DNA from: Polyangiaceae bacterium
Lineage (GTDB): Bacteria > Myxococcota_A > Polyangia > Polyangiales > Polyangiaceae
Direction of reading: 5' to 3'
Assembly: GCA_020849655.1 (NCBI GenBank)
Contig: JADLFU010000008.1
Coordinates: forward strand, 1 to 64,000
DNA length: 64,000 nt
The position numbers and the translations under genes were made by a program. The notes under the pieces were generated by a model, which was not told the DNA's origin, made no database searches, and was given only the letters and a program-made list of their open reading frames with translations. Shown here one piece after another: positions 9,480 to 34,155 of the stretch. Each line of letters opens with the position of its first letter. Within the stretch, counting starts at the first letter, position 1.

Positions 9480-11993
9480 TCAGCGCGCGGGGCGAGAGGG
9501 GTCTTCGGGCCAGTGGTGCTTCGGGTACTTGCGACCGAGCTCCTTGCGGAGGCTCGGCCAGTGGCGCTCCCAGAAGCCTGCGAGATCGCGCGTCACCTGC
9601 ACGGGTCGCTGGTTCGGCGCGAGCAAGTGCACGACGAGCAGCGCGCGCCCGCCCGCGATGGTGGGCGCCTCGCGCATGCCGAAGAAGTCCTGCATGCGGC
9701 TCGCGACGAAGGGCTCCTGCCCTGGCGCGTAGGTGATCTTCGCCTGCCGACCGCTCGGGAGCGTGAGCCGCGGCGGGGCCCACTCGCGCAGCTGCGCTCT
9801 CTGCTCGGGCGCGAGACGCTGCTCGATCTCGACCGCGAGATCGACCTCGCGCAGCTCCTCGAAGCTCGATCGACCGACGGCCGCCGCCGCGACGAGCGCC
9901 GAGACGCCGGCGGCGTCGACCGCGGGGAAGCCGGGATCGTGCGCGGCGACGAACGACAGCCGCGCGAGGAGCGACACCCAGGCGTCCTGGTCGCGGACGA
10001 ACGCGGAGAGCCCTCGCTTCTCGGCCATCGACGCGAGCAGCGCGCCGACGGCCACGGGATCTCCGCCGCGGCGCCGCACCTCGTCGATCGCGACGGCGTC
10101 GTACATCAGGCGCTCGACCGACTCGACGCGCTCGCGCGCGCCGTCCCACTCGAGGCCGGCCTCGTCGCGCAGACGCTCGGGGAACAGCTCGAGCAGCCAC
10201 TCGGAGAGGACCCGCGAGACGAGCCGCGCGAGCGGGCGCGCAGGATCGCCGTCGGCAGAGACGACCACCACGAGCGGCGCGTCGACGACCACGCTGTCGG
10301 CGGCCTGCGTGAGCGCGCCGCCCGACGACATCACGAGCGCGTCCCCCCCGGCGCGCTTGCGCGCGGCGACCCGATCGGGGAACCCCGCGAGCAACGCCAG
10401 GCCGAGCGCGTCGTCCTCGTCGAGCGGGGGCGCGTCCCCGGCGTCGCGGGGCAGCGCGCGCAGGAGCCGCTCGCACGCCCGCACGGCGGCGAGCGTCGCG
10501 GACGGGTCTCCGCCCGTCGCCTTGATCTGCGCGGCTGACAGCCGCTCTCGCGACGCGCGGAGCACGAGCTGGGCGCGCGGGGTGACGTCCGAGTCGCCGC
10601 GCTCCCCGTGCGCGCGCGGGCCTCGATCGAACCTCGCGCGTCCGTCGCCCAGCACGTCTCGCTCCGCGAGCGCCGCCGCCGCCGCCGCGCCGAGCAGCGG
10701 GTGCCCGCGCCGCGCCGCCTCGATCGCCGCTCTCCCGAGCCGGGGGTGCACCGGGAGCCGCAGCAGCTGACGACCGAGCGGCGTGAGGCGCCCATCGTCG
10801 AGCGCGCCGAGGCGCTCCAGGAGCTCCTGCGCGGCCCGCATCGACGGCTCGGGCGGCGCGTCGAGCCAGGCGAGATCGGCGGCCGAGACGCCGAGCTCCG
10901 CGAGCTGGAGCGCGAGCTCGCAGAGATCGGCGCGCGCGAGCTCGGGCGCGTCGTGCTCGGGCCGCCGCTCGAGGTCTCCCTTCGTGTACAGGCGCACGCA
11001 CACGCCCGCGCGCGTGCGCCCCGCGCGACCCGCGCGCTGCGCCGCCGACGCGCGGCTGATCTTGTCGATCTTCAGGGAGGAGAGCCCCGTCCACGGCGAG
11101 CACGACGCCGTCCGCGCGAGGCCCGAGTCGACGACCGCGGCGACGCCGTCGACGGTGACGCTCGACTCGGCGACGTTCGTCGAGAGGATGATCTTCGGCG
11201 CGCGGGAGGGCGCGAGCACGCGGTCTTGCTCGTCCGGCGTGAGGTCTCCGTGCAGGGGCATCACGACCGCGCCCACGTCGCGCGCGACAGGCTCGCACGC
11301 CGCCTGCGCCGCGCGGATCTCGCGCGCGCCCGGGAGGAACACGAGCGCGTGTCCGTCGAGCCCGTCGCGGAACAGCCCGCGCAGCGCGACGGCCACCTCC
11401 GTCGCCAGCGGGCGCGCGGGCGGCGCGTCCGCGTGCCGCACGTCGATCGCGAACGCGCGCCCCTCCGACCTCACGATCGGCGCCGACAGGTACGCGGCCA
11501 CCCGCCCGGCGTCGATCGTCGCGCTCATCGCCCCGACCAGCAGCTCCGGCCGCCTCGTCTCCGACAGCCGCCGCAGGAGCGCGAGCGCGACGTCGGCCTG
11601 CAGGTGCCGCTCGTGCACCTCGTCGACGAGCACGGCCGCGACGCCCGCGAGCGACGGGTCGCGCACCATCCAGCGCGTCAGCACGCCGTCGGTAACGAAT
11701 CTCACCTTCGTCGCGCGGCCCGTCCGATCGTCGAACCTCACCGTGTACCCGACGCGGCCCCCGAGCTCCTCGCCCAGCTCCTCGGCGACGCGGCGCGCGG
11801 CGAGGCGCGCGGCCAGGCGGCGAGGCTCGAGGACGACGATCTCCCCCTGGTCGCCGACGCCCGCGTCGAGCAGCGCGCGCGGCACGCGCGTCGTCTTGCC
11901 TGCGCCGGGGGGCGCAAGGAGCACGATCCGGCGAGCGCGGAGGAGCGTCTCCGTGATCTCGGGCAGCACGGCGTCGATCGGCAGCGGGATCAC
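9480..11993 (-). CDS. hrpB: ATP-dependent RNA helicase HrpB
   Basis: The start is the GTG at 11993 (VIPLPIDAVLPEITETLL), which overlaps the upstream stop in a GTGA. The open frame upstream is not coding. The 837-residue length fits HrpB. Motifs in order are a P-loop (PPGAGKTTRVP), PRRLAAR (Ia), DEVHERH (the DExH box), GAMSATID (motif III), then STNVAESSVTVDGV and QRAGRAGRT (motif VI), followed by the HA2 region and the HrpB-specific C-terminal domain ending around PKHHWPEDP. The enzyme is a 3'-5' DExH-family helicase of uncertain cellular substrate. It is translationally coupled to the pseudouridine synthase. Confidence 0.95.
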   Translation of the reverse strand: MIPLPIDAVLPEITETLLRARRIVLLAPPGAGKTTRVPRALLDAGVGDQGEIVVLEPRRLAARLAARRVAEELGEELGGRVGYTVRFDDRTGRATKVRFVTDGVLTRWMVRDPSLAGVAAVLVDEVHERHLQADVALALLRRLSETRRPELLVGAMSATIDAGRVAAYLSAPIVRSEGRAFAIDVRHADAPPARPLATEVAVALRGLFRDGLDGHALVFLPGAREIRAAQAACEPVARDVGAVVMPLHGDLTPDEQDRVLAPSRAPKIILSTNVAESSVTVDGVAAVVDSGLARTASCSPWTGLSSLKIDKISRASAAQRAGRAGRTRAGVCVRLYTKGDLERRPEHDAPELARADLCELALQLAELGVSAADLAWLDAPPEPSMRAAQELLERLGALDDGRLTPLGRQLLRLPVHPRLGRAAIEAARRGHPLLGAAAAAALAERDVLGDGRARFDRGPRAHGERGDSDVTPRAQLVLRASRERLSAAQIKATGGDPSATLAAVRACERLLRALPRDAGDAPPLDEDDALGLALLAGFPDRVAARKRAGGDALVMSSGGALTQAADSVVVDAPLVVVVSADGDPARPLARLVSRVLSEWLLELFPERLRDEAGLEWDGARERVESVERLMYDAVAIDEVRRRGGDPVAVGALLASMAEKRGLSAFVRDQDAWVSLLARLSFVAAHDPGFPAVDAAGVSALVAAAAVGRSSFEELREVDLAVEIEQRLAPEQRAQLREWAPPRLTLPSGRQAKITYAPGQEPFVASRMQDFFGMREAPTIAGGRALLVVHLLAPNQRPVQVTRDLAGFWERHWPSLRKELGRKYPKHHWPEDPSRPAR

Positions 11994-22085: not shown

Positions 22086-23168
22086 TCACAGGTGCGCTCC
22101 CAGCCGGTCGAACACGAACACCTCGCCCTCGTAGTGTCCGAAGAACCGCCACGCCGCCCCGTCGCGCCACGCGTAGAGCTCGTGGGTGCTCCCGGGCACT
22201 GGATTGCCCGCCAAGGCCTTGAACGGTCGCGCCGCCGGTAGCTGCTTCTTCTTGTCGTGGTGGGCGCAAAAATCGTCGAGCGCGCGGTTCACGTCGGCCT
22301 TCCTGGCGGTCTCGAGGGATCGAAACACACGCTTCACGGGCTCACTGACACGGACACGAGCCGAGAGCGGCTCGCAGAGCTCGTCGGCGAAGAGCGCCTC
22401 GCGGTGCACCCTCCACGCGGTCTCCCCCAGCTCGCTCATGAGCACACTGTCACTGACCTGAAAGAGCAGCACCTCGGGGATCCCCGCCGCCTGCTCCGCG
22501 CTCACCTCGTAGTTCATGGCCAGGCGCCTGAACACGTCGAGGTGCGCCGTGAGCGCCTGAGATTCATTCGCGTGGATCGGGAGGCGGGGGATCTCCATCA
22601 GCTCCGCGGAGCCCTCGAACAGGAACACGCAACGGTCGGCCGACAGCATCCCCACGGTCTGCAGGAAACCGTTCAGAGACTTGAAGCCACCCGTGAGGTT
22701 GAAGACGACGAACGCTCCTTGGTCTCGGTAGCCTTCCACGGTGTCGTCGAGCGTTCGCTTCAGGTCGACCACCGCCGCGCGGAAGGACCCGAGATCGCTC
22801 GTGCGGAGCCCAGGCGCGGTCACCTTGGTCGCCCCGCCGAGCGCGTCGCCGACGATCTCCGCGGTGGCTTCACCGACCGCCGTGTCCGTGTACACGAGCA
22901 CATGAAACACCGGTCCAGGCGCGTAGTTCTTCGAGAGCACGGCGTCGATGCCGTTGATCTCGGCGGTCATCCGGCGCCTCGTGGGCTCGTCGGCCCCGGC
23001 GAGCGTCTGGCGGCGGGCGGAGACGAGCGCGGCCAGCCGGCGAGCATCGTCGCCGTCGAGGTTGCGCCGGTTGGTGATGCTGGTCAGCCACCTGCGATCC
23101 TCGTCGGTCGCGCCGTTGGTCAGCAGGCTGGTCCCACAGGTGGAGACGATGAGGAGCTCCGTGGGCAT
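22086..23168 (-). CDS. CARF-domain CRISPR ancillary effector (APE2256-like) with RelE-like C-terminus
   Basis: The ATG at 23168 is chosen because LLIVSTCGTSLLTNG then begins at once, as in this family. A GAGG lies 6 bases upstream, and the preceding stop is 2 bases away. Residues 1-~200 show CARF features: strand 1 ending in STCGTS, VFHVLVYTDT, and the ligand-loop FNLTGGFKSLNGFL. This pattern is known from the Csm6-related APE2256 family, which binds cyclic oligoadenylate. Residues ~280-360 (FKALAGNPVPGSTHELYAW then WRFFGHYEGEVFVFDRLG) read like a RelE/ParE toxin fold, which would make it a Cami1-type CARF-RelE mRNA interferase. No HEPN motif is present. The RelE assignment is an inference from pattern. 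Confidence 0.75.
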   Translation of the reverse strand: MPTELLIVSTCGTSLLTNGATDEDRRWLTSITNRRNLDGDDARRLAALVSARRQTLAGADEPTRRRMTAEINGIDAVLSKNYAPGPVFHVLVYTDTAVGEATAEIVGDALGGATKVTAPGLRTSDLGSFRAAVVDLKRTLDDTVEGYRDQGAFVVFNLTGGFKSLNGFLQTVGMLSADRCVFLFEGSAELMEIPRLPIHANESQALTAHLDVFRRLAMNYEVSAEQAAGIPEVLLFQVSDSVLMSELGETAWRVHREALFADELCEPLSARVRVSEPVKRVFRSLETARKADVNRALDDFCAHHDKKKQLPAARPFKALAGNPVPGSTHELYAWRDGAAWRFFGHYEGEVFVFDRLGAHL

Positions 23169-23170
23169 GG

Positions 23171-24068
23171 TCAGCCTCGGGTCGTTCGGTACGGGCGCCA
23201 CTGGTGAAAGCGAAACGAACGCGTGACCCGCACCGAGCCGTCTGCGAGGTCCTCGGAGAGCACCTGGCGCGCTCCGGCGGGCGCGAAGCAGGCGATCCCC
23301 TGGCCCTCGAGGCGATGCACGAGCTGCGCGGTGAGGACCGGCTCGCCGAACACTCCCGCCGCGGTGGGGCGCTGGACGAGCGCTCGGGCCGCGAGCTGGT
23401 CCGCGAGCTTCTCGACCTCCCGGGTCGAGAGCTCAGGACCGACCGTCGGCATGCCTCCGTCGGGGTCCTCGACCTCGCCGATGATCGCCGCCGCCTCCCG
23501 CTGGTGCGTGGGCCAGGTGGCGACGGGATGATTCGACAGGTTGATGAACTTCGGGGTGGGCGCCGCGGGCGCCACGATGACGCCGTCCCACTCGGCGACC
23601 AACTTCCCCAGCTCTTCTACACAGCGAGCGACCTTCTCTCGAAGGTCCTTCGCCGTGAGGTTGTTGGCGTTCATGCCCGCGTGCTGGATGTAGTTGCGAG
23701 CCTGGGCGATCTCCGACGCCAACCTGCTCTCCCGCGAACCGTCACGCAGGTCCTGCAGGCGGCCGAGCTCGCGGTCTGCGCGGGCGCGCGCCGCTCCGTC
23801 GACGAACTTGCCCTCCTCTCCGAAGGCCTGCCCGCAGGCCCAGCTCCCCGAGGCACGCTCGCAGCGACTTGCGCAGGGGATCGACCGTCGCCGCGCGCTC
23901 GTCGCCTCGGGGTGGAAAATCGGGCGTGTTCTCGGCGAGAATGGCCTCGAGCTGTGCTTCGCACAGCACCCTGCCGTCGAGGCCCCCGGCGCCGCAGCGC
24001 ACTGCGCGGAGGTCGATCTTCGCGCCGAGCGCGCGCTCGTACTCGGCGAGCGCGTCGGCGCGGTTCAT
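23171..24068 (-). pseudogene. HEPN-motif protein with Rossmann-like C-terminal domain, interrupted by an apparent 1-base frameshift
   Basis: A coding-like frame starts at ATG 24068 (MNRADALAEYERALGAK) and runs to about 23825. It continues in the +1 frame as GKFVDGAARARADRELGRLQ down to the TGA at 23171. Dropping one T of GGCCTT at 23823-23824 joins them into ~298 residues. The downstream frame alone would give 183 residues from 23722. It contains RNYIQHAG, an RX4H HEPN ribonuclease motif. The C-terminal ~130 residues (FINLSNHPVATW through GEPVLTAQLVHRLEGQGIAC to FHQWRPY) look like a small Rossmann-like domain that I cannot name. Just 2 bases separate it from the CARF gene, so both belong to one operon. 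The frameshift may be real or a sequencing error. Confidence 0.6.
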
Positions 24069-26719: not shown

Positions 26720-28059
26720 TGAGTTTCCCCGATGACCGTCCTGCGCGCACCGGCGCATCGTGAACACCGACTCCGGCGCATCGTGAACACCGACTCCGGC
26801 GCATCGTGAACACCCCCCGGCGCCGGTCGCCGGGCCAGCGATCGCGACGCTCTCGGGTCTCCCGACGGCCCCCCGCGTACGCGGGGGGCACGGCCACGGA
26901 GAGACTGGAGATGCACGTACTCAGGGAGATTTTCAGGCAGAAGTGGACGCTCGGGCGGAGCCACCGGGAAGGTGGTCGACGCGCTCGGTGTGAGCATCGG
27001 GAAGATCTCGGTCGGGGAGCCTGCCTTTCGCAGCCCACCCCTGTTTCGCACAATATGTCGAGGAGGAGGTGTCTCAATCCCCTCATCGGGGAGCCTGCCT
27101 TTCGCAGTCCCGTCCAGGCCAAGAAGACCGTGCAGACCCTCCCCGCGTCTCAATCCCCTCATCGGGGAGCCTGCTTTCGCAGCAGCGAATTTACCGCGAC
27201 ACGGTACCCTGACGGGTGCGCAGGTCTCATTCAACCACGTCCCCTTGGTCGGAGTGTGCCTCCTGGCGAGCCCGTTCACCTGGCCCGGGCGTCGGGTCTT
27301 CGAGTACTCACCCAGCCTCTTGAACACAGGCTCCATCGCCCTCTCGTGTCCATCGTCCGCGACCGCGCGCGCCCACGCTGTCAGGTAGGCGACCCACGTC
27401 TGGCGACCCGCGTGGTCCATGCGATCCCAGCGATGCCAGCCGCCCTCGCCCGCCGCCTCGATCAGTCGCTCGACATCGTCGACCAGGTGGTCCGAAGGGC
27501 GCCCCAGGTGGTGCAAGAGCGTCTGCAGGGCGTCGACGTCGCGACGCGGGCGAGGCGGCGCGGGCTCGGCACGCCGCTCGCGACCAGCCGCGAGTTGCCG
27601 CGCGACCTCCTCGACGCTCAGCTGGGTCGCCGCGCCCTCCGCGCGCGTCGCCGCCGCGACGCCGGCGACCGTGTCGTCACCGCGCGCGATCGGCGCTGCC
27701 TCGGGCAGCCGCGGCTCGTCCGCGGCCTCGGCGATCGTGCACGCCGTGTGCGCCGCGGTGCTCTGGCCGACCGGGACGGCCAGGGCGCGAATACCCTGCC
27801 CGCCCTGCTCCCGGTGGACCATGAGCGCCAGCGTCGCGACGACGATCGCTGCTCGCGTCCTCTGTTCGTCGAGGCGGTCGAGCGCCTGCCGCAGCTCCGC
27901 GAAGCTCTCGGGCCGGTGCGCTGCGTCGGCGAGGGCCGCCGCGAGCTCGCAGTCCCATCGGTCCAGCTCGACCAGAGCCTCCTCGAGGCGGGCCAGCGTA
28001 CCGTCGGGGCCGGTCTCGCGGGGGAGGGTCATCGTGACGGGAGTATAGAGGATGGTCAT
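26626..28059 (-). CDS. Array-proximal protein of unknown function whose frame reads through the CRISPR array
   Basis: The frame starts at ATG 28059 (or ATG 28032, MTLPRETGPDGTL). Residues ~10-285 are coding-like: a helical region with LARLEEALVELDRWDCELAAA, a Pro/Arg linker, then a compact domain with GGWHRWDRMDHAGRQTWVAYLTAWARAVADD. No stop occurs before the array, so the formal frame continues through all three repeats to 26626 (477 residues). Residues beyond ~290 have no coding character. The original C-terminus was probably lost when the array or a rearrangement arrived, or the stop has mutated. It diverges from the four-gene operon that starts at 28158. I do not recognise the family. Confidence 0.5.
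   Translation of the reverse strand: MTILYTPVTMTLPRETGPDGTLARLEEALVELDRWDCELAAALADAAHRPESFAELRQALDRLDEQRTRAAIVVATLALMVHREQGGQGIRALAVPVGQSTAAHTACTIAEAADEPRLPEAAPIARGDDTVAGVAAATRAEGAATQLSVEEVARQLAAGRERRAEPAPPRPRRDVDALQTLLHHLGRPSDHLVDDVERLIEAAGEGGWHRWDRMDHAGRQTWVAYLTAWARAVADDGHERAMEPVFKRLGEYSKTRRPGQVNGLARRHTPTKGTWLNETCAPVRVPCRGKFAAAKAGSPMRGLRRGEGLHGLLGLDGTAKGRLPDEGIETPPPRHIVRNRGGLRKAGSPTEIFPMLTPSASTTFPVAPPERPLLPENLPEYVHLQSLRGRAPRVRGGPSGDPRASRSLARRPAPGGVHDAPESVFTMRRSRCSRCAGARRTVIGETHQPLDRPALADRVIALRAVQPGTSTCNAAYT
26751..26814. repeat. Three 23-bp direct repeats, resembling IS21-family multiple terminal repeats
   Basis: Units begin at 26751, 26774 and 26797 and share CGGCGCATCGTGAACACC plus a 5-base GACTC linker; the third is cut short. 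Read on the minus strand each contains GTGTTCACGATGCGCCGG. Repeated TGTTCACGA-type ends are known from IS21-family elements, whose termini carry several short repeats. No istA or istB gene is present, so this would be a solo remnant end. The family assignment is from memory of the motif. Confidence 0.5.
26869..26888. repeat. Perfect 20-bp palindrome
   Basis: CCCCCCGCGTACGCGGGGGG is a perfect inverted repeat about 108 bases from the CRISPR array. Its hairpin and flanks (CGG before, CACGG after) resemble a type I-E CRISPR repeat, but it is single-copy and has no spacer neighbours. It could equally be a terminator stem or a protein-binding site. Apart from this palindrome and the 23-bp repeats, I see nothing in 26720-26996. 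Confidence 0.4.
26997..27182 (-). CRISPR. Mini CRISPR array: three repeats, two spacers
   Basis: Repeats occupy 27147-27182 (36 nt), 27071-27107 (37 nt) and a degenerate copy at 26997-27033. On the minus strand they begin CTGCGAAAGGCAGGCTCC and end GATGAGGGGATTGAGAC, with a CCCC-GATGA-GGGG hairpin. This 3' end, of the GATTGAGAC type, is common in type III and some type I arrays. Spacers are 39 nt (27108-27146) and 37 nt (27034-27070). The degenerate copy has lost its 3' half on the minus strand, as expected for the leader-distal end. Transcription should therefore run right to left, with the leader above 27183. No cas1, cas2, cas6 or cas10 is in the window. Confidence 0.85.
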
Positions 28060-28157: not shown

Positions 28158-29246
28158 GTGCCCTCCCCGCCCAGCATCTGGCAGGTCTTTCTCGACGAAT
28201 CGGGAGACTTCTCGCGCGACGATGGCACTGTCGTGGTCGCCGGCTGGGCGTGCCACGCGGACGACTCGCCCGGTCTGAGAGCCGTTCTGCGCAGGGCGCT
28301 CGACGCCGCGTACCCCGGCCAGGCGTACCCGCCGCACGCGGCGGACCTGAACCTCACAGCGGGGTACGCCACGGCTCGCGCCCTCGCGGGCGACGGCTCG
28401 CCCGTCATCCTGCGCGCCATCGGGGCGCTCACCCAGGATTCCGAGGTCGGGGCGGCCTTCGCTGCGGCCCTCGCGAAGCGCACGTTGCCCCGGTACGAGC
28501 TCCTGAGGCTCGCGACCCACCGCCTGCTGGTGCACGAACCCGCCCTGGCGAGCGCCGTCGACAAGCGGTCGAGGGCCGCCGCGCGGAGGGCGCTCTCCGT
28601 CCTCTCCGGCGCGCCGAGAGACCAGTGCTTCCTGCTCGGCGCGGTCGACCGAGGGGAGGGCCGGGAGGGCCCCGAGACAGAGGATCGCTACCTCGCGCTC
28701 CTCGAGGTGCTCCTGGAGCGCGTGTTCGGATTGTTGCGCCACACGGACGCCCGAGCGGAGGTGTGGGTGCACACCGAGGGGCGTCACGTCACCGACGGGG
28801 CGCTGGCCCGCATGCCCATGATGAGCCGCCACGTCGCGGCGCGGATCCGCCGGGCGGAGCGGTTTCCGTTGTTGCCTCCGATCCCGGGTTCGGTGGACGC
28901 GCGAGTGCGCATGATCCCCCACCGCCCCTCCCACCACAAGGCGACCTGTCACCCCGGGGTCGCGCTGGCCGATCTCATCGCCAACCGATGTCATAGGGCG
29001 CTGCGTCGTGCCCCCACCTGCCAGTGGCGAGCCCTGGCCGACCAGCTCGACCAGGCGGTCCTGCCACCGTCCAGCACTGCCATGCGCGCCACCGGGAGGC
29101 AGCTGCCCTCGGTCGCCGCCGCGGGGCCGGCGCGACGCGCCATCCTTCGAGCGTTCGCGAACGAGCCCGGCCCTCCGCTCGGCGGCGTCGGCTGGGAGAC
29201 CGACCAGGCAACTGCCTGGATCTCCGCTGCGGAGTCCTTGCGATGA
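28158..29246 (+). CDS. DUF3800-like protein with RNase H-like fold signature
   Basis: The 362-residue product starts with QVFLDESGDFSRDDGTVVVAGW, closely matching the DESGD opening of DUF3800 (D13, E14, D17 in an RNase H-like fold). It ends its core with HPGVALADLIANRCHRAL, the counterpart of the family's late Q/V-x-x-ADL-I motif carrying another acidic residue. DUF3800 proteins are often found near phage-defence and mobile genes and are suspected nucleases; their activity is mostly untested. It is the first gene of a tightly coupled operon (ATGA overlap with the next gene) and diverges from the array-proximal gene. Confidence 0.7.
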   Translation: MPSPPSIWQVFLDESGDFSRDDGTVVVAGWACHADDSPGLRAVLRRALDAAYPGQAYPPHAADLNLTAGYATARALAGDGSPVILRAIGALTQDSEVGAAFAAALAKRTLPRYELLRLATHRLLVHEPALASAVDKRSRAAARRALSVLSGAPRDQCFLLGAVDRGEGREGPETEDRYLALLEVLLERVFGLLRHTDARAEVWVHTEGRHVTDGALARMPMMSRHVAARIRRAERFPLLPPIPGSVDARVRMIPHRPSHHKATCHPGVALADLIANRCHRALRRAPTCQWRALADQLDQAVLPPSSTAMRATGRQLPSVAAAGPARRAILRAFANEPGPPLGGVGWETDQATAWISAAESLR

Positions 29247-30196
29247 GGCTCGTGACGGCGCTCGACGCCATCCGACACCACCAGGCGCGCCACGTGCACT
29301 GGCAGTGCGTCCAGGACCGCCTGAAGCAGATGCGGTCCGCCACCGAAGACAGGCTCCAGCAGGTCTTGATGATGCTCCACTCCAAGGCCGGCACGGGCAA
29401 GGATCCCCTCTCGGTTTGTCTCGCGTCTCTGGACCTGGAAGGCGAGGGCTGGGCCGTCGAAGACGCCTCCCCCGAGCTGACGTCCGACCAGCGCGCGAGG
29501 CACGAGCACCTGGAGCGCAAGGTGACAGCCTACCTCGGCACGTGCCTCCGGAACAGGGCCACGAGCGAGGGCAGGCGGGCCTCGCGTGGAGATCACGACG
29601 TCGCCGAGGCCGCGGGCGCTATCGATCCCGCCCCCGACCTCGGGCAGGTGCTGGAACCGTTGCGCGCCTGCGTTCGCGCGGGGCTCGAGCGCCGCGCCTA
29701 CCGGGGCATGGAGACGTGGCTCACGAGGTTCGACGAGCTCGTCCGGGCCAAGGGCGGTGATATGTCCATGGCGTCGATCACCATGCGGCGCCTCGTCGCG
29801 GACGACCCCACCTTCGAGCCGGTCGGCGCGCTCGCTGCGCCCCTGCTCGCCGAGTCGTCGCCCCGGCCGCTCCGCGAGGCGGCGCGGCTGCTCGATCCGG
29901 TCGCGCTCGAGACATGGCTCCGGACAGCGACCAGCGAGGAAGGTCCGCATCGGGCACAGGCCGAGGCGCTGCTGGCTCGGATCGGCGAGGCCCTGCGGTG
30001 CGACGCCGGCAAGAAGGCCCGGCAGCGCGTCGACGCCGAGCACACGCGGCTGAGGAAGCTCATCCTCGAGACCGCGGCCTCGCAGCGCCGCGCCGGCGAG
30101 ATCGACGCCTCCACGGAGGCAGACCTGCGGAGGATGGTGACCGACCTCCTCTGTCAGAGACGCCCGCGTGCCAGCGTCAAGGGGACGGATCGATGA
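29243..30196 (+). CDS. Unknown protein with weak sigma-70 region 2 resemblance
   Basis: The ATG at 29243 overlaps the previous stop (ATGA), giving 317 residues, mostly helical. Residues ~35-50 (EDRLQQVLMMLHSKAG) and ~93-108 (VTAYLGTCLRNRATSEGRR) recall the two helices of ECF sigma region 2, where Y-L-x-x-x-L-R-N-x-A is typical. No clear region 4 follows; the C-terminal half has a basic Arg-rich helix (RQRVDAEHTRLRKLI). The sigma reading is a weak inference; a generic nucleic-acid-binding helical protein is equally possible. It is the second gene in the operon and is coupled on both sides. Confidence 0.55.
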   Translation: MRLVTALDAIRHHQARHVHWQCVQDRLKQMRSATEDRLQQVLMMLHSKAGTGKDPLSVCLASLDLEGEGWAVEDASPELTSDQRARHEHLERKVTAYLGTCLRNRATSEGRRASRGDHDVAEAAGAIDPAPDLGQVLEPLRACVRAGLERRAYRGMETWLTRFDELVRAKGGDMSMASITMRRLVADDPTFEPVGALAAPLLAESSPRPLREAARLLDPVALETWLRTATSEEGPHRAQAEALLARIGEALRCDAGKKARQRVDAEHTRLRKLILETAASQRRAGEIDASTEADLRRMVTDLLCQRRPRASVKGTDR

Positions 30197-31242
30197 GCAG
30201 CGCGAGCTTCTGGGCAGATGACCTCGGCGTCGGCGAGGCCGAGCTGGGGCCGGTCGAGACACACGTCGCGCCGCGACCGGCGGTCGCCGCCGGGCTCGCG
30301 GTCGGAGATCGTGCCGTGCTCGGGGTGACCCCCGCGGCGATCGCGCGCGCCCTCGACGGGAAGCCGGAGTTCGCCAGGGTGCCCTCACCCGCGGCGACGG
30401 CGCTCGACCTCACGTGGTGGAACCCACGGGTGGGCGTGCTCGTCGTCGAGGGCCAGGACGCGCTCGTCGCCTCGTCGGGCGACGTCGTCGTGCTCGACGA
30501 TGACCGCGTCGTGCTCGCCTGGGGACGCGGAGACGCCGCCGTCCGCGTGCGGTCGTGCGATCAAGACTTCGTCCTCCGCGTCAGTGACGGGACGCTCTCC
30601 TCCTGTCGCCTGGCGCGGGTGCAAACCGCGCCGCCCGCGTGGCTCACCGCGCCGCGCGAGCTCGCCCCCGAGCCTCCCGATCCCGCGATCGCAGCGCCAC
30701 GGCTCGACGTGATGGTTGCGGGAAGCGTGGTCCCCGACTGGCTGCCCGGTCGGTTCGCCCGCCTGGCAGACTCCGGCGTCCCCGGGTTGGTCGCCGCGGC
30801 CGTGGGGATGGTGCTTCGGTTTCACTTGCCGGCCTCTTTCGACCCCTCGTCCTCCGGGCCGACCTCGACGACCCTCCGCGCGCGCGCCTTCGCCGCTGCG
30901 CTGGAGGAGCCCGTCGTCGACGCGCTCGTGACGTGGGCGCTCGACGAGGTCGGCGACCTGGAGGACATGTTGTCATTGTTCGATCAGCACCCGGCCGAGG
31001 GCGACGAGCTCGGGTCGCTCGCCAGCGGGTTCGTGAGGAGGCGCGACGAGCTCCAGTCGCTCTCCGGGCTGCTCGCGCTGATCGGGCGAGGTCGCGCGCT
31101 CGACCACCGGCTCGGGGAGCTCGACGACGAGTCCCTCGCGCGGTACGAGCACTTCCTGCTGCACGTCGCGCCCGACGACCACCTCGACGAGGTGGCCTGG
31201 CGGGAGCCCGACGCGTGGTGGGGGCGCCTGTCGTGCGACTGA
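30193..31242 (+). CDS. Unknown acidic protein, third gene of the operon
   Basis: The ATG at 30193 overlaps the previous stop (ATGA). The 349-residue protein has no signal peptide or TM segment. The N-terminal ~155 residues have a beta-rich look (VLVVEGQDALVASSGDVVVLDDDRVVLAWG), possibly a small beta-barrel. The remainder is helical and Asp/Glu-rich (GDLEDMLSLFDQHPAEGDEL). It ends in EPDAWWGRLSCD. I recognise no family. Its place between the sigma-like and Lon-like genes, with overlaps on both sides, suggests a fixed-stoichiometry partner such as an inhibitor, adaptor or sensor. Confidence 0.6.
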   Translation: MSSASFWADDLGVGEAELGPVETHVAPRPAVAAGLAVGDRAVLGVTPAAIARALDGKPEFARVPSPAATALDLTWWNPRVGVLVVEGQDALVASSGDVVVLDDDRVVLAWGRGDAAVRVRSCDQDFVLRVSDGTLSSCRLARVQTAPPAWLTAPRELAPEPPDPAIAAPRLDVMVAGSVVPDWLPGRFARLADSGVPGLVAAAVGMVLRFHLPASFDPSSSGPTSTTLRARAFAAALEEPVVDALVTWALDEVGDLEDMLSLFDQHPAEGDELGSLASGFVRRRDELQSLSGLLALIGRGRALDHRLGELDDESLARYEHFLLHVAPDDHLDEVAWREPDAWWGRLSCD

Positions 31243-32927
31243 CCGAGCTCGGGACGCTGGCCGAGCACAACCCGCGCGCCCGCAGACTCCTCGCGAGGCT
31301 CCGCGAGGCGCCTTGGTGCCACTCAGCCGCGCCTGCCCGCGTGGGAGAGGTGCTGCTCGTCTCCGTGCAGGACGGCGCGCCGCCTCGTGACGAGCTGTGG
31401 GTGCTCCGGCCCGCGGGCGACGGGACGCCGCTCTCTGACACCTCCTCGCGCGAGCTGACCGCGCTCCGGGACGTGGCGGCGCGCGACGTGCCGCTGCTCC
31501 TGTGCCCGCGCGAGCTGTGGCGACGCCGCGAGTGGAGCGCGACGCTGCTGTACTCGCCCCCGGAGGCCGGCGGCCGAACGGACCACCTCGATGGGCGATC
31601 CTACGGCCTCGCGATGGTGCTGGCCCACGCCTCCCTGCTCGTCGGCGTGGCCGCGCCGCCTGACGTCATCGGCTGCGCGGCGGTCGACCCGGACGGCACG
31701 CTGGGCCGCGTCGACGGCCTCGCGCGCAAGCTGCAGGTCGTCGCGGACATCGCTGTCGAGGTGCACCGAGTGTTCGTCGCGTCCGAGCAGGCCGCCGAGG
31801 CGCGGCACCACTTGTCACGGATCGCGGGCGGCGACGGGGTCGAGGTGGTCCCGTGCGGCACGGCCCGCGAGGCGCTCGCCATCGCGTTCCCTGCCGGCGT
31901 CCTCGACGTCGGAGCCGACACCGCAGGCGACCTGTTTCGTCTCGCGCTCGACGGCGCTCCGAAGCTGCTTGGCTGGCAGGCCGTCGTGCGGGCCGCCGAG
32001 GCCGTCCTCCGCGGCGCTGACGTCGAGCAGCGTCGGCAGGCGTCGATCGCCCTCGCGATCGCCGCGCGGCACACGGGAGCGAGCAGCCTGCTGGAGCTCC
32101 CCGTGGACATCGCGCCGCTCCCGCGCCCGCTGCGCCTCCGCCTGGCGGCGCACGCGCTGCAGTCCGCTTCGGATGGGTACCTGGAGCATCTGCCGGACCG
32201 GATGGAGCTTGCCCGAGGGCTGCTCGCGTCGCCGGGCGAGCGTCACGAGGAGGACCTCGCGCTCCTGGGCGCCCTCGGGCGGGCGCACGCCTCGCTCGGA
32301 CAGTGGGACGACGCGAGAGACGCGCTGACCGACGCGCTCGACGGTTGGCACCAGCTTCACCGCGAGGAGGGCTCGAGCTACGCGCTGTCGGAGTACCTCC
32401 GTGTCCTCGGCATCCAGCGAGACTCGGCCTCCCTCCGCGCCGTCGCTCCGCGGTACGTCGACCGCCTCCTGCTCGACCCGCGCGCCCGCGACGACAGTGT
32501 GGCGTTCGTGAGATACAACCAGGCGCGCGCGTGGCTGCTGTGCGGGGAGCCTGCGAGGGCGCTCGGCCTGCTCACCGACCGGCTCGTGACCAGCGTCCTG
32601 GTCGATGGGATGCGGATGCGCGAGCCGCTCCTCTGGACGGCGCGCGCCCTCGCCGCCCTCGGCGAGACCGAGGGAGCGGAGGGCGTCCACGCGCTCCTCG
32701 AAGAGCTGCGCCCCGGCTGCGAGGAGGACGCCCGCGTCCGCACGATGGCGCGTCTCGCGCGCGCCCTGCGGCGCGGAGAGGACCATCGCCCGCACCTCGT
32801 CGCCCTCGTCGACGAGGCGCGCGACCGGGAGAGCTGGGCGCAGTTTCGCCGCATCGCCGGCCTCGTCCCGCCCGCGGACGCGAGCGCCACGGTCGCGCAG
32901 CGCCTCCTCGACGAGGCTCGCGACTGA
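31233..32927 (+). CDS. Lon/S16-like domain protein with C-terminal helical (TPR-like) repeats
   Basis: I chose the GTG at 31233 (VRLTELGTLAEHNPR), which overlaps the previous gene by 10 bases behind a G-rich stretch; a GTG at 31218 or a CTG at 31239 is possible. The product is 564 residues. Residues ~118-185 match the S16 protease core: LDGRSYGLAMVLAHASLLVGV aligns with Lon DGPSAGIAMV, putting Ser at 123, and GTLGRVDGLARKLQVV aligns with Lon GxVxxIGGLKEK. The Lon catalytic Lys position appears to be Ala, with Lys two residues later (K166). No AAA+ domain is present. Residues ~240-560 form TPR-like helical pairs. It may be a peptidase or a non-catalytic S16 scaffold. Confidence 0.65.
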   Translation: MRLTELGTLAEHNPRARRLLARLREAPWCHSAAPARVGEVLLVSVQDGAPPRDELWVLRPAGDGTPLSDTSSRELTALRDVAARDVPLLLCPRELWRRREWSATLLYSPPEAGGRTDHLDGRSYGLAMVLAHASLLVGVAAPPDVIGCAAVDPDGTLGRVDGLARKLQVVADIAVEVHRVFVASEQAAEARHHLSRIAGGDGVEVVPCGTAREALAIAFPAGVLDVGADTAGDLFRLALDGAPKLLGWQAVVRAAEAVLRGADVEQRRQASIALAIAARHTGASSLLELPVDIAPLPRPLRLRLAAHALQSASDGYLEHLPDRMELARGLLASPGERHEEDLALLGALGRAHASLGQWDDARDALTDALDGWHQLHREEGSSYALSEYLRVLGIQRDSASLRAVAPRYVDRLLLDPRARDDSVAFVRYNQARAWLLCGEPARALGLLTDRLVTSVLVDGMRMREPLLWTARALAALGETEGAEGVHALLEELRPGCEEDARVRTMARLARALRRGEDHRPHLVALVDEARDRESWAQFRRIAGLVPPADASATVAQRLLDEARD

Positions 32928-33743: not shown

Positions 33744-33803
33744 CCTCAAGGCTCCTACGCCAACCAACTCCCAGAGCAAAGCGCTCACCTCGGCATCCAG
33801 GTC

Positions 33804-33966
33804 ACGAACGGCAGCGAAGCGCGCCGCGCTCGCCCCCAGAGCGCACCCAATCACGAACGGCAGCGAAGCGCGCCGCGAAGGCAGCCACGCACGCCGCGAA
33901 CGGCAGCGAAGCACGCCGCGAACGGCAGCGAAGCGCGCCGCGAACGGCAGCGAAGCGCGCCGCGCT
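33804..33966. repeat. Five copies of a 22-bp repeat, three in tandem
   Basis: GCGAACGGCAGCGAAGCGCGCC and close variants start near 33804, 33852, 33896, 33918 and 33940; the last three are exact head-to-tail copies apart from one base. Spacing of the first two is irregular. The whole gap 33744-34155 has no gene that I can support. Only this repeat cluster stands out, followed by an A/C-rich stretch (ACACACCCCACACACCCC-like near 33990). The repeat resembles dispersed REP-like sequence rather than CRISPR, because there are no spacers. Confidence 0.7.
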
Positions 33967-34155
33967 CTCCGCACCATCCGCCCCAACACACCCCACACAC
34001 CCCTCCCCCGCCCCCGTCCTGGTGCACACGGGTCGCGATGATCGTGGTCGAGGTCGAGCGAGGTCGGGCGTGCGGTCGCGCGGAGCGGGCTGGTAAGCCC
34101 GCGAGCACGCCGCACCCCGACGTCGCGAAGACATCGGCCGCGAGCGCGCGACCCG

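Follow-up and report, generated by a model that had tools for sequence, protein, structure and literature searches.

A conserved four-gene Lon-TPR unit linked to type III CRISPR, probably a regulated-proteolysis module of the Calp kind

What could four tightly overlapping genes for a putative nuclease, a sigma-like protein, a protein of no known family and a Lon-type protease be doing beside the remains of a CRISPR array? This question is raised by a 64,000-nucleotide stretch of a Polyangiaceae genome (positions 1 to 64,000 of contig JADLFU010000008.1, assembly GCA_020849655.1; hereafter the window), which encodes, at 28158–32927 on the plus strand and in this order, a DUF3800-like protein (g1), a sigma-like protein (g2), a family-less protein (g3) and a Lon/S16 protease domain fused to tetratricopeptide-like repeats (TPR; g4). 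Comparative analysis confirmed that the unit is real, its gene order recurring far above chance, and its linkage to type III-B CRISPR is statistically clear. We consider it reasonably likely, though well short of certain, that the four genes form a module for regulated proteolysis, linked to type III CRISPR and of the kind exemplified by Calp, in which the protease CalpL cleaves the anti-sigma factor CalpT, itself bound to CalpS (PMC11417357).

Homologs of g1 (protein P0001) were found in 18 of 284 Myxococcota genomes, the source genome included, and the flanks of most of them encode g3 and g4, with a g2-like gene between g1 and g3 and the order kept. The g3 profile reached further (34 of the 284 Myxococcota genomes and 4 of 216 genomes in the phylum of G286), and a scan of genome contigs gave 16 loci, two of them complete four-gene sets from Planctomycetota (L051, L053). 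The 48 loci collected in total are those with g3, some of them cut by contig ends. The complete series g1-g2-g3-g4 occurs in order in 26 of these 48, in both Myxococcota and Planctomycetota; g2 adjoins g3 in 43, a protease gene is adjacent in 42 (whether Lon-TPR, SAVED-Lon, CARF-Lon or S8 subtilase), and g1 is absent from 17, some of which are truncated. Protein identity to the window is about 20–35% with the same gene order in two phyla, and the order is therefore selected rather than recent. Co-occurrence of the four families elsewhere, a neighbourhood check set beforehand for the four-gene system proposed in the initial annotation, is thus borne out.

Within the source assembly (G000; high-GC, 307 contigs, 97% complete, with relatives in Myxococcota), g1 (28158–29246), g2 (29243–30196) and g3 (30193–31242) are joined by 4-base overlaps at both junctions. 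The four open reading frames of the initial annotation are present, all on the plus strand, and overlap at every junction as described there; the last overlap, given there as 10 bases, is probably 28 bp. Because relatives of g4 mostly overlap g3 by 14–31 bp and several of them start with MVG, the in-frame GTG at 31215, yielding the N-terminus MVGAPVVRL, is preferred as the start of g4 (31215–32927) over the possible alternative at 31233.

The S16 (Lon-type) domain of g4 (protein P0004; 31335–31892, plus strand), first recognized from the sequence alone, was confirmed by a profile match to the Lon P-domain (PDB 1rr9, E. coli Lon, E 7e-13), while Pfam Lon_C is matched by 6 of 11 g4 relatives (best 5.3e-7). 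The catalytic serine (S123 in P0004 numbering, codon 31599–31601, plus strand) and lysine (K166, codon 31728–31730, plus strand) are invariant in all 16 of 16 Lon-TPR relatives. The annotated TPR-like repeats follow at 31920–32924 (plus strand; Pfam TPR_12, 3.7e-4), occupying the place of the SAVED sensor in CalpL; weak in the window sequence alone, they recur after the Lon part in several relatives and are upheld at the level of the family. Beyond the Lon part, no CARF or SAVED match was obtained for g1–g4 of the window in Pfam, NCBIfam or PADLOC, and a search of plasmid sequences with P0004 alone gave no match.

Some variants of g4 were also recorded. The copy at L048 is divergent, and that at L030 (G248:C222), in a module beside Csx1-Csx20, has an in-frame TAG inside g4 (codon at 10857), reflecting either a decayed copy or a sequence error. 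At three loci (L152:2696-9299, L153:5878-12575 and L156:11585-18402), a Lon-TPR gene without g2-g3 adjoins a gene for a DEAD/MZB helicase of about 1700 residues, of the DruE type known from Druantia, on contigs that carry a CRISPR array or type III genes; Cas7-11, which was tried as an identity for this large neighbour, was rejected in favour of the helicase assignment.

For g2 (protein P0002, 317 residues), similarity to sigma factors appears at the profile level: the window sequence alone is too divergent to match any family, and a single-sequence search of 284 genomes with P0002 retrieved only itself, so that profiles were needed. The family profile matched extracytoplasmic function (ECF) sigma factors in PDB (SigE, E 1.2e-6; SigL, E 9e-6), these matches resting on region 2, and its comparison by hhalign with a profile built from the ECF sigma factors of the source genome gave E 2.7e-8 over 158 columns spanning regions 2 and 4 (E 4.4e-8 with the window g2 added to the alignment), with E 0.52 for g3 as a control. 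One family member also matched Sigma70_r2 at 1e-4. The layout comprises a region-2-like segment at residues ~15–117 and a region-4-like helix (H..R.R..L) at residues ~258–285. The sigma resemblance noted initially thus persists in profile searches, and g2, which stands in a CalpS-like position, is probably an alternative ECF-like sigma factor. Its structure model is of low confidence (predicted local distance difference test, pLDDT, 65), and the match of this model to sigma70 domain 2 (Z 3.5) was not used as evidence.

The product of g3 (349 residues), in the CalpT-like position, is a candidate anti-sigma factor and protease substrate. It has no Pfam family and no PDB match; its AlphaFold model (pLDDT 76) is beta-rich in the N-terminal half and helical in the C-terminal half, the C-terminus carries a conserved AWWG motif, and fold searches returned weak helical-bundle matches (best Z 6.2) that are uninformative. 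The most telling observation concerns the slot next to it.

At one Myxococcota locus (L056), homologs of g1-g2-g3 are followed by a SAVED-Lon protein that is a relative of CalpL (PDB 7qda, E 1.5e-47; PADLOC CRISPR-Lon, 8.6e-77), the g3 there being homologous by hhalign (E 1.2e-7) and bearing a C-terminal extension. At another (L142), homologs of g1, g2 (9.1e-6) and g3 (2.8e-9) precede a CARF-Lon (1.7e-37), whose catalytic serine is not placeable with confidence, and at two orthologous loci (L128:7312-10201 and L140:8043-11068) an S8 subtilase precedes g2-g3. The g4 slot is therefore exchangeable, a constant g2-g3 pair being combined with different sensor-proteases. Such an arrangement is what would be expected if g2 were a sigma factor, g3 its inhibitor and the occupant of the slot a regulated protease, and it matches, by analogy, both CalpL-CalpT-CalpS and Csx29-Csx30-CASP-sigma, where Csx29 (TPR-CHAT) cleaves the sigma inhibitor Csx30 (PMC10028731). 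The analogy with CalpL-CalpT-CalpS that the initial annotation drew is strongly supported by the CalpL relative and the CARF-Lon found in this slot, as well as by the type III linkage described below. A search for the PADLOC CRISPR-Lon family in the 284 Myxococcota genomes returned no match, but its controls were silent too, so that absence is not demonstrated. A further CARF-Lon with S16-like motifs (L160; G184:C95) has as neighbours a three-repeat array and a Cmr/Cas10 operon; a homologous sigma factor was considered for the gene that follows this CARF-Lon, and the similarity is faint and statistically unsupported (E 0.019).

Linkage to CRISPR was assessed for 23 module copies by counting only Cas10, RAMP and Cas1 matches within 10 kb. 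Five of the 23 copies lie this close, whereas 0.17 would be expected given how many such genes these genomes hold and where they lie (about 30-fold excess; Poisson P ~1e-6). This excess shows linkage, not mechanism, as clustering in defence islands would raise the count too. About twelve copies are flanked by type III genes. In G160:C96, g1-g2-g3-g4 leads, across a gap of 37 bp, into a Cas10-like gene and RAMPs on the same strand. In G081:C67, g4 is succeeded by CARF-HEPN, Cmr2, Cmr3, Cmr1, Cmr6 and CARF-RelE, while an array of 16 repeats lies past g3; at L051 and L059 the module precedes Cas6, Csx1, a Cas10-like gene, RAMPs, PrimPol and Cas1. Other neighbours include Cmr6 (L044), Csx1-Csx20 (L030), Csx20/Csx1/CARF-RelE (L038), Cas10 (G234), PrimPol/Cas1/array (G011) and Csx1-Csx20, Cmr6 and PrimPol (L134).

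Combining these observations, we infer the following sequence of events. In the resting state, g3 would act as a partner and inhibitor holding the sigma factor g2; upon infection, the Ser-Lys protease g4 would be activated through its TPR region and cleave g3, and the g2 thus freed would redirect RNA polymerase to defence genes. The TPR region would stand in for the nucleotide sensor, SAVED in CalpL and CARF in CARF-Lon, and g1 would serve as the nuclease effector of the module or as its first target gene. As to the trigger, the usual role of TPRs in protein binding and the absence of a CARF or SAVED match in g4 lead us to prefer a Craspase-like mechanism, with an activated Cmr complex or some other protein docking directly, over binding of cyclic tetra-adenylate (cA4). 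An alternative is that the TPR region of g4, or the beta domain of g3, is an unrecognised cyclic-oligoadenylate sensor and that cA4 sets off the module as it does CalpL. The SAVED-Lon and CARF-Lon proteins serving homologous g1-g2-g3 sets speak for such a sensor, as do the cA4-type genes (Csx20, CARF-RelE) in the window and at several other loci; set against the protein-binding habit of TPRs, the lack of a CARF or SAVED match in the window unit and the occurrence of modules in genomes with no detected Cas10, they leave this alternative rather unlikely. The docking reading in its most specific form (TPR-Lon docking on activated III-B Cmr/Cas10 without a second messenger, cleaving a new anti-sigma family and starting an antiviral regulon that is under sigma control and includes a DUF3800 nuclease) would amount to a third class of protease cascade, with the g2-g3 core as a plug-in for TPR-Lon, SAVED-Lon, CARF-Lon and S8 proteases; this extended version is a tentative proposal, to which we would give somewhat less than an even chance.

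Several observations weigh against a CRISPR-linked proteolysis module. Region 4 of g2 is degenerate, no promoter dyad or motif common to the upstream regions of 21 modules was found, and g3, having no detectable similarity to known structures, offers no direct support for an anti-sigma role. The protease also occurs without g2-g3, beside the DruE-type helicase, and, conversely, four g2-g3 pairs have no recognised adjacent protease, partly in conserved non-defence surroundings. Type III CRISPR neighbours are lacking for at least half of the copies, and no Cas10, RAMP or Cas1 match was obtained in several module-bearing genomes (e.g., G241, with two copies) or in the assembly of the window itself. 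The copies far from CRISPR genes and the pairs in non-defence neighbourhoods, together with the S8 protease that replaces Lon at two loci, would fit a general stress or cell-regulation cassette of myxobacteria, composed of sigma factor, anti-sigma factor and protease and gathered in defence islands with no CRISPR-specific input. Against such a cassette stand type III co-location about 30-fold above expectation, same-strand contiguity with Cas10 and a slot that can hold CalpL or CARF-Lon, sensors of the cA4 type, and we regard it as improbable, the least favoured of the alternatives weighed here.

The first gene bears on a different alternative. The DUF3800-like RNase H fold proposed initially for g1 (362 residues) stands in part: the DESG motif is invariant in the family, together with H60, Y178, R188 and D272, while the score against Pfam DUF3800 (PF12686) is 13.6 bits, under the 21-bit gathering cut-off (best relative, E 0.029). 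Motif and position suggest that g1 is a divergent DUF3800 member and a predicted RNase H-fold nuclease. No relative of g1 or g4 was found in viral contigs by a pattern-limited search. The invariant acidic/His set, typical of a nuclease, the adjacency of g1 to g2-g3-g4 in most loci and the association of DUF3800 proteins, as putative nucleases, with Cas12a2 and VI-F loci (PMC10910872, PMC12669027) would all suit a scheme in which g4 cleaves g3 or g1 and thereby releases a toxic effector, either the nuclease or a fragment of g3, with g2 merely regulating its own operon. We think this scheme unlikely, given that g1 is the less constant component (missing from 17 of 48 loci, some truncated, vs. 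g2 and g3 together in 43) and that the known Calp and Csx29 systems target sigma inhibitors.

How, then, does the inferred sigma-releasing module relate to known systems? With CalpL-CalpT-CalpS of Sulfurihydrogenibium it shares the joint encoding, close to type III CRISPR, of an S16 Ser-Lys protease, a sigma factor of ECF-like type and a third protein; moreover, a CalpL relative fills the g4 slot at L056. It differs in having TPRs where CalpL has SAVED (SAVED being limited to the L056 variant) and in the added DUF3800 gene; g3 takes the place of CalpT without a sequence or fold match, the CalpT sequence itself lying outside the comparison. Because its protease lacks SAVED and g3 is not tied to CalpT, the unit is placed within the broader Calp/CASP kind, as a variant not described before, and outside CalpL-CalpT-CalpS itself. 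Type III-E Craspase (Cas7-11/gRAMP, Csx29, Csx30, Csx31, CASP-sigma) likewise combines a TPR-bearing protease, a predicted sigma factor and one or more unknown proteins in a type III neighbourhood with no CARF or SAVED in the unit; however, its protease is of the CHAT type and not S16 (Lon), the identified effector neighbours of our module are multi-subunit III-B Cmr/Cas10 and not Cas7-11, and no Csx30 similarity was found for the module. In Craspase the sigma inhibitor is cleaved once target RNA has been recognized; the module has the sigma-like g2 to match the sigma factor of that pathway. CARF-Lon, a predicted type III effector whose target and partners are unassigned in PMC9704534, shares the Lon domain and, at L142, stands directly behind g1-g2-g3 homologs, whereas the window g4 has TPRs and no CARF. 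DUF3800 and TPR modules are also tied to CRISPR in the TPR-DUF3800 proteins of Cas12a2 loci and the DUF3800 proteins of VI-F loci; there, DUF3800 and TPR sit in one protein alongside a class 2 effector, whereas the window has them in different genes, accompanied by a Lon protease and a sigma factor. Finally, the myxobacterium M. xanthus has its III-B CRISPR under the control of an ECF sigma/anti-sigma pair, according to the account in PMC11237760 (citing Bernal-Bernal 2018).

Our literature search found no description of the four-gene unit, although an unnamed survey entry is possible, supplementary tables and subscription papers being beyond its reach; it found two protease-to-sigma CRISPR cascades, CalpL-CalpT-CalpS and Craspase. 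The g2-g3 pair is present in about 12% of sampled Myxococcota genomes and is found with no fewer than four types of protease, one of them related to CalpL. The module would thus define g3 as a new candidate anti-sigma family, predict what CARF-Lon and TPR-Lon act on, and add type III-B loci to the places where DUF3800 proteins occur. Direct sensing of Cmr, if real, would make TPR-Lon a Ser-Lys protease that responds to RNA, of interest as a sensor.

The surroundings of the unit in the window contain further CRISPR-related elements. The neighbouring array of the initial annotation proved to be a remnant (27012–27180, plus strand) of about three repeats (CTCAATCCCCTCATCGGGGAGCCTGCC...) spaced at 74–76 bp. 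The CARF genes stated to lie near the operon but not in it are represented by a gene for a Cami1-type CARF-RelE effector of type III CRISPR (22089–23201, minus strand; Pfam Cas_APE2256, 2.4e-22; PADLOC CARF_RelE, 2.1e-92). Upstream of it lies a Csx20-like gene (23189–23548, minus strand; PADLOC Csx20, E 1.4e-19), of a family that includes cA4 ring nucleases (PMC12409355). This pair (22089–23548) sits in an assembly with no Cas10, RAMP or Cas1 match, implying either contigs missing from the assembly or an orphan signalling pair.

A gene at 27170–28059 on the minus strand (a 296-residue frame), divergent from g1, extends into the CRISPR remnant; it has no match in Pfam or PADLOC and no homolog beside other modules. 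Between a 2-oxoglutarate (2OG)-oxygenase-like gene and the remnant, a 23-nt unit (CCGGCGCATCGTGAACACCGACT) is repeated three times in tandem at 26750–26818. Downstream of the module, at 33798–33983, GC-rich overlapping direct repeats are arranged around CGCGAACGGCAGCGAAGCGCGC.

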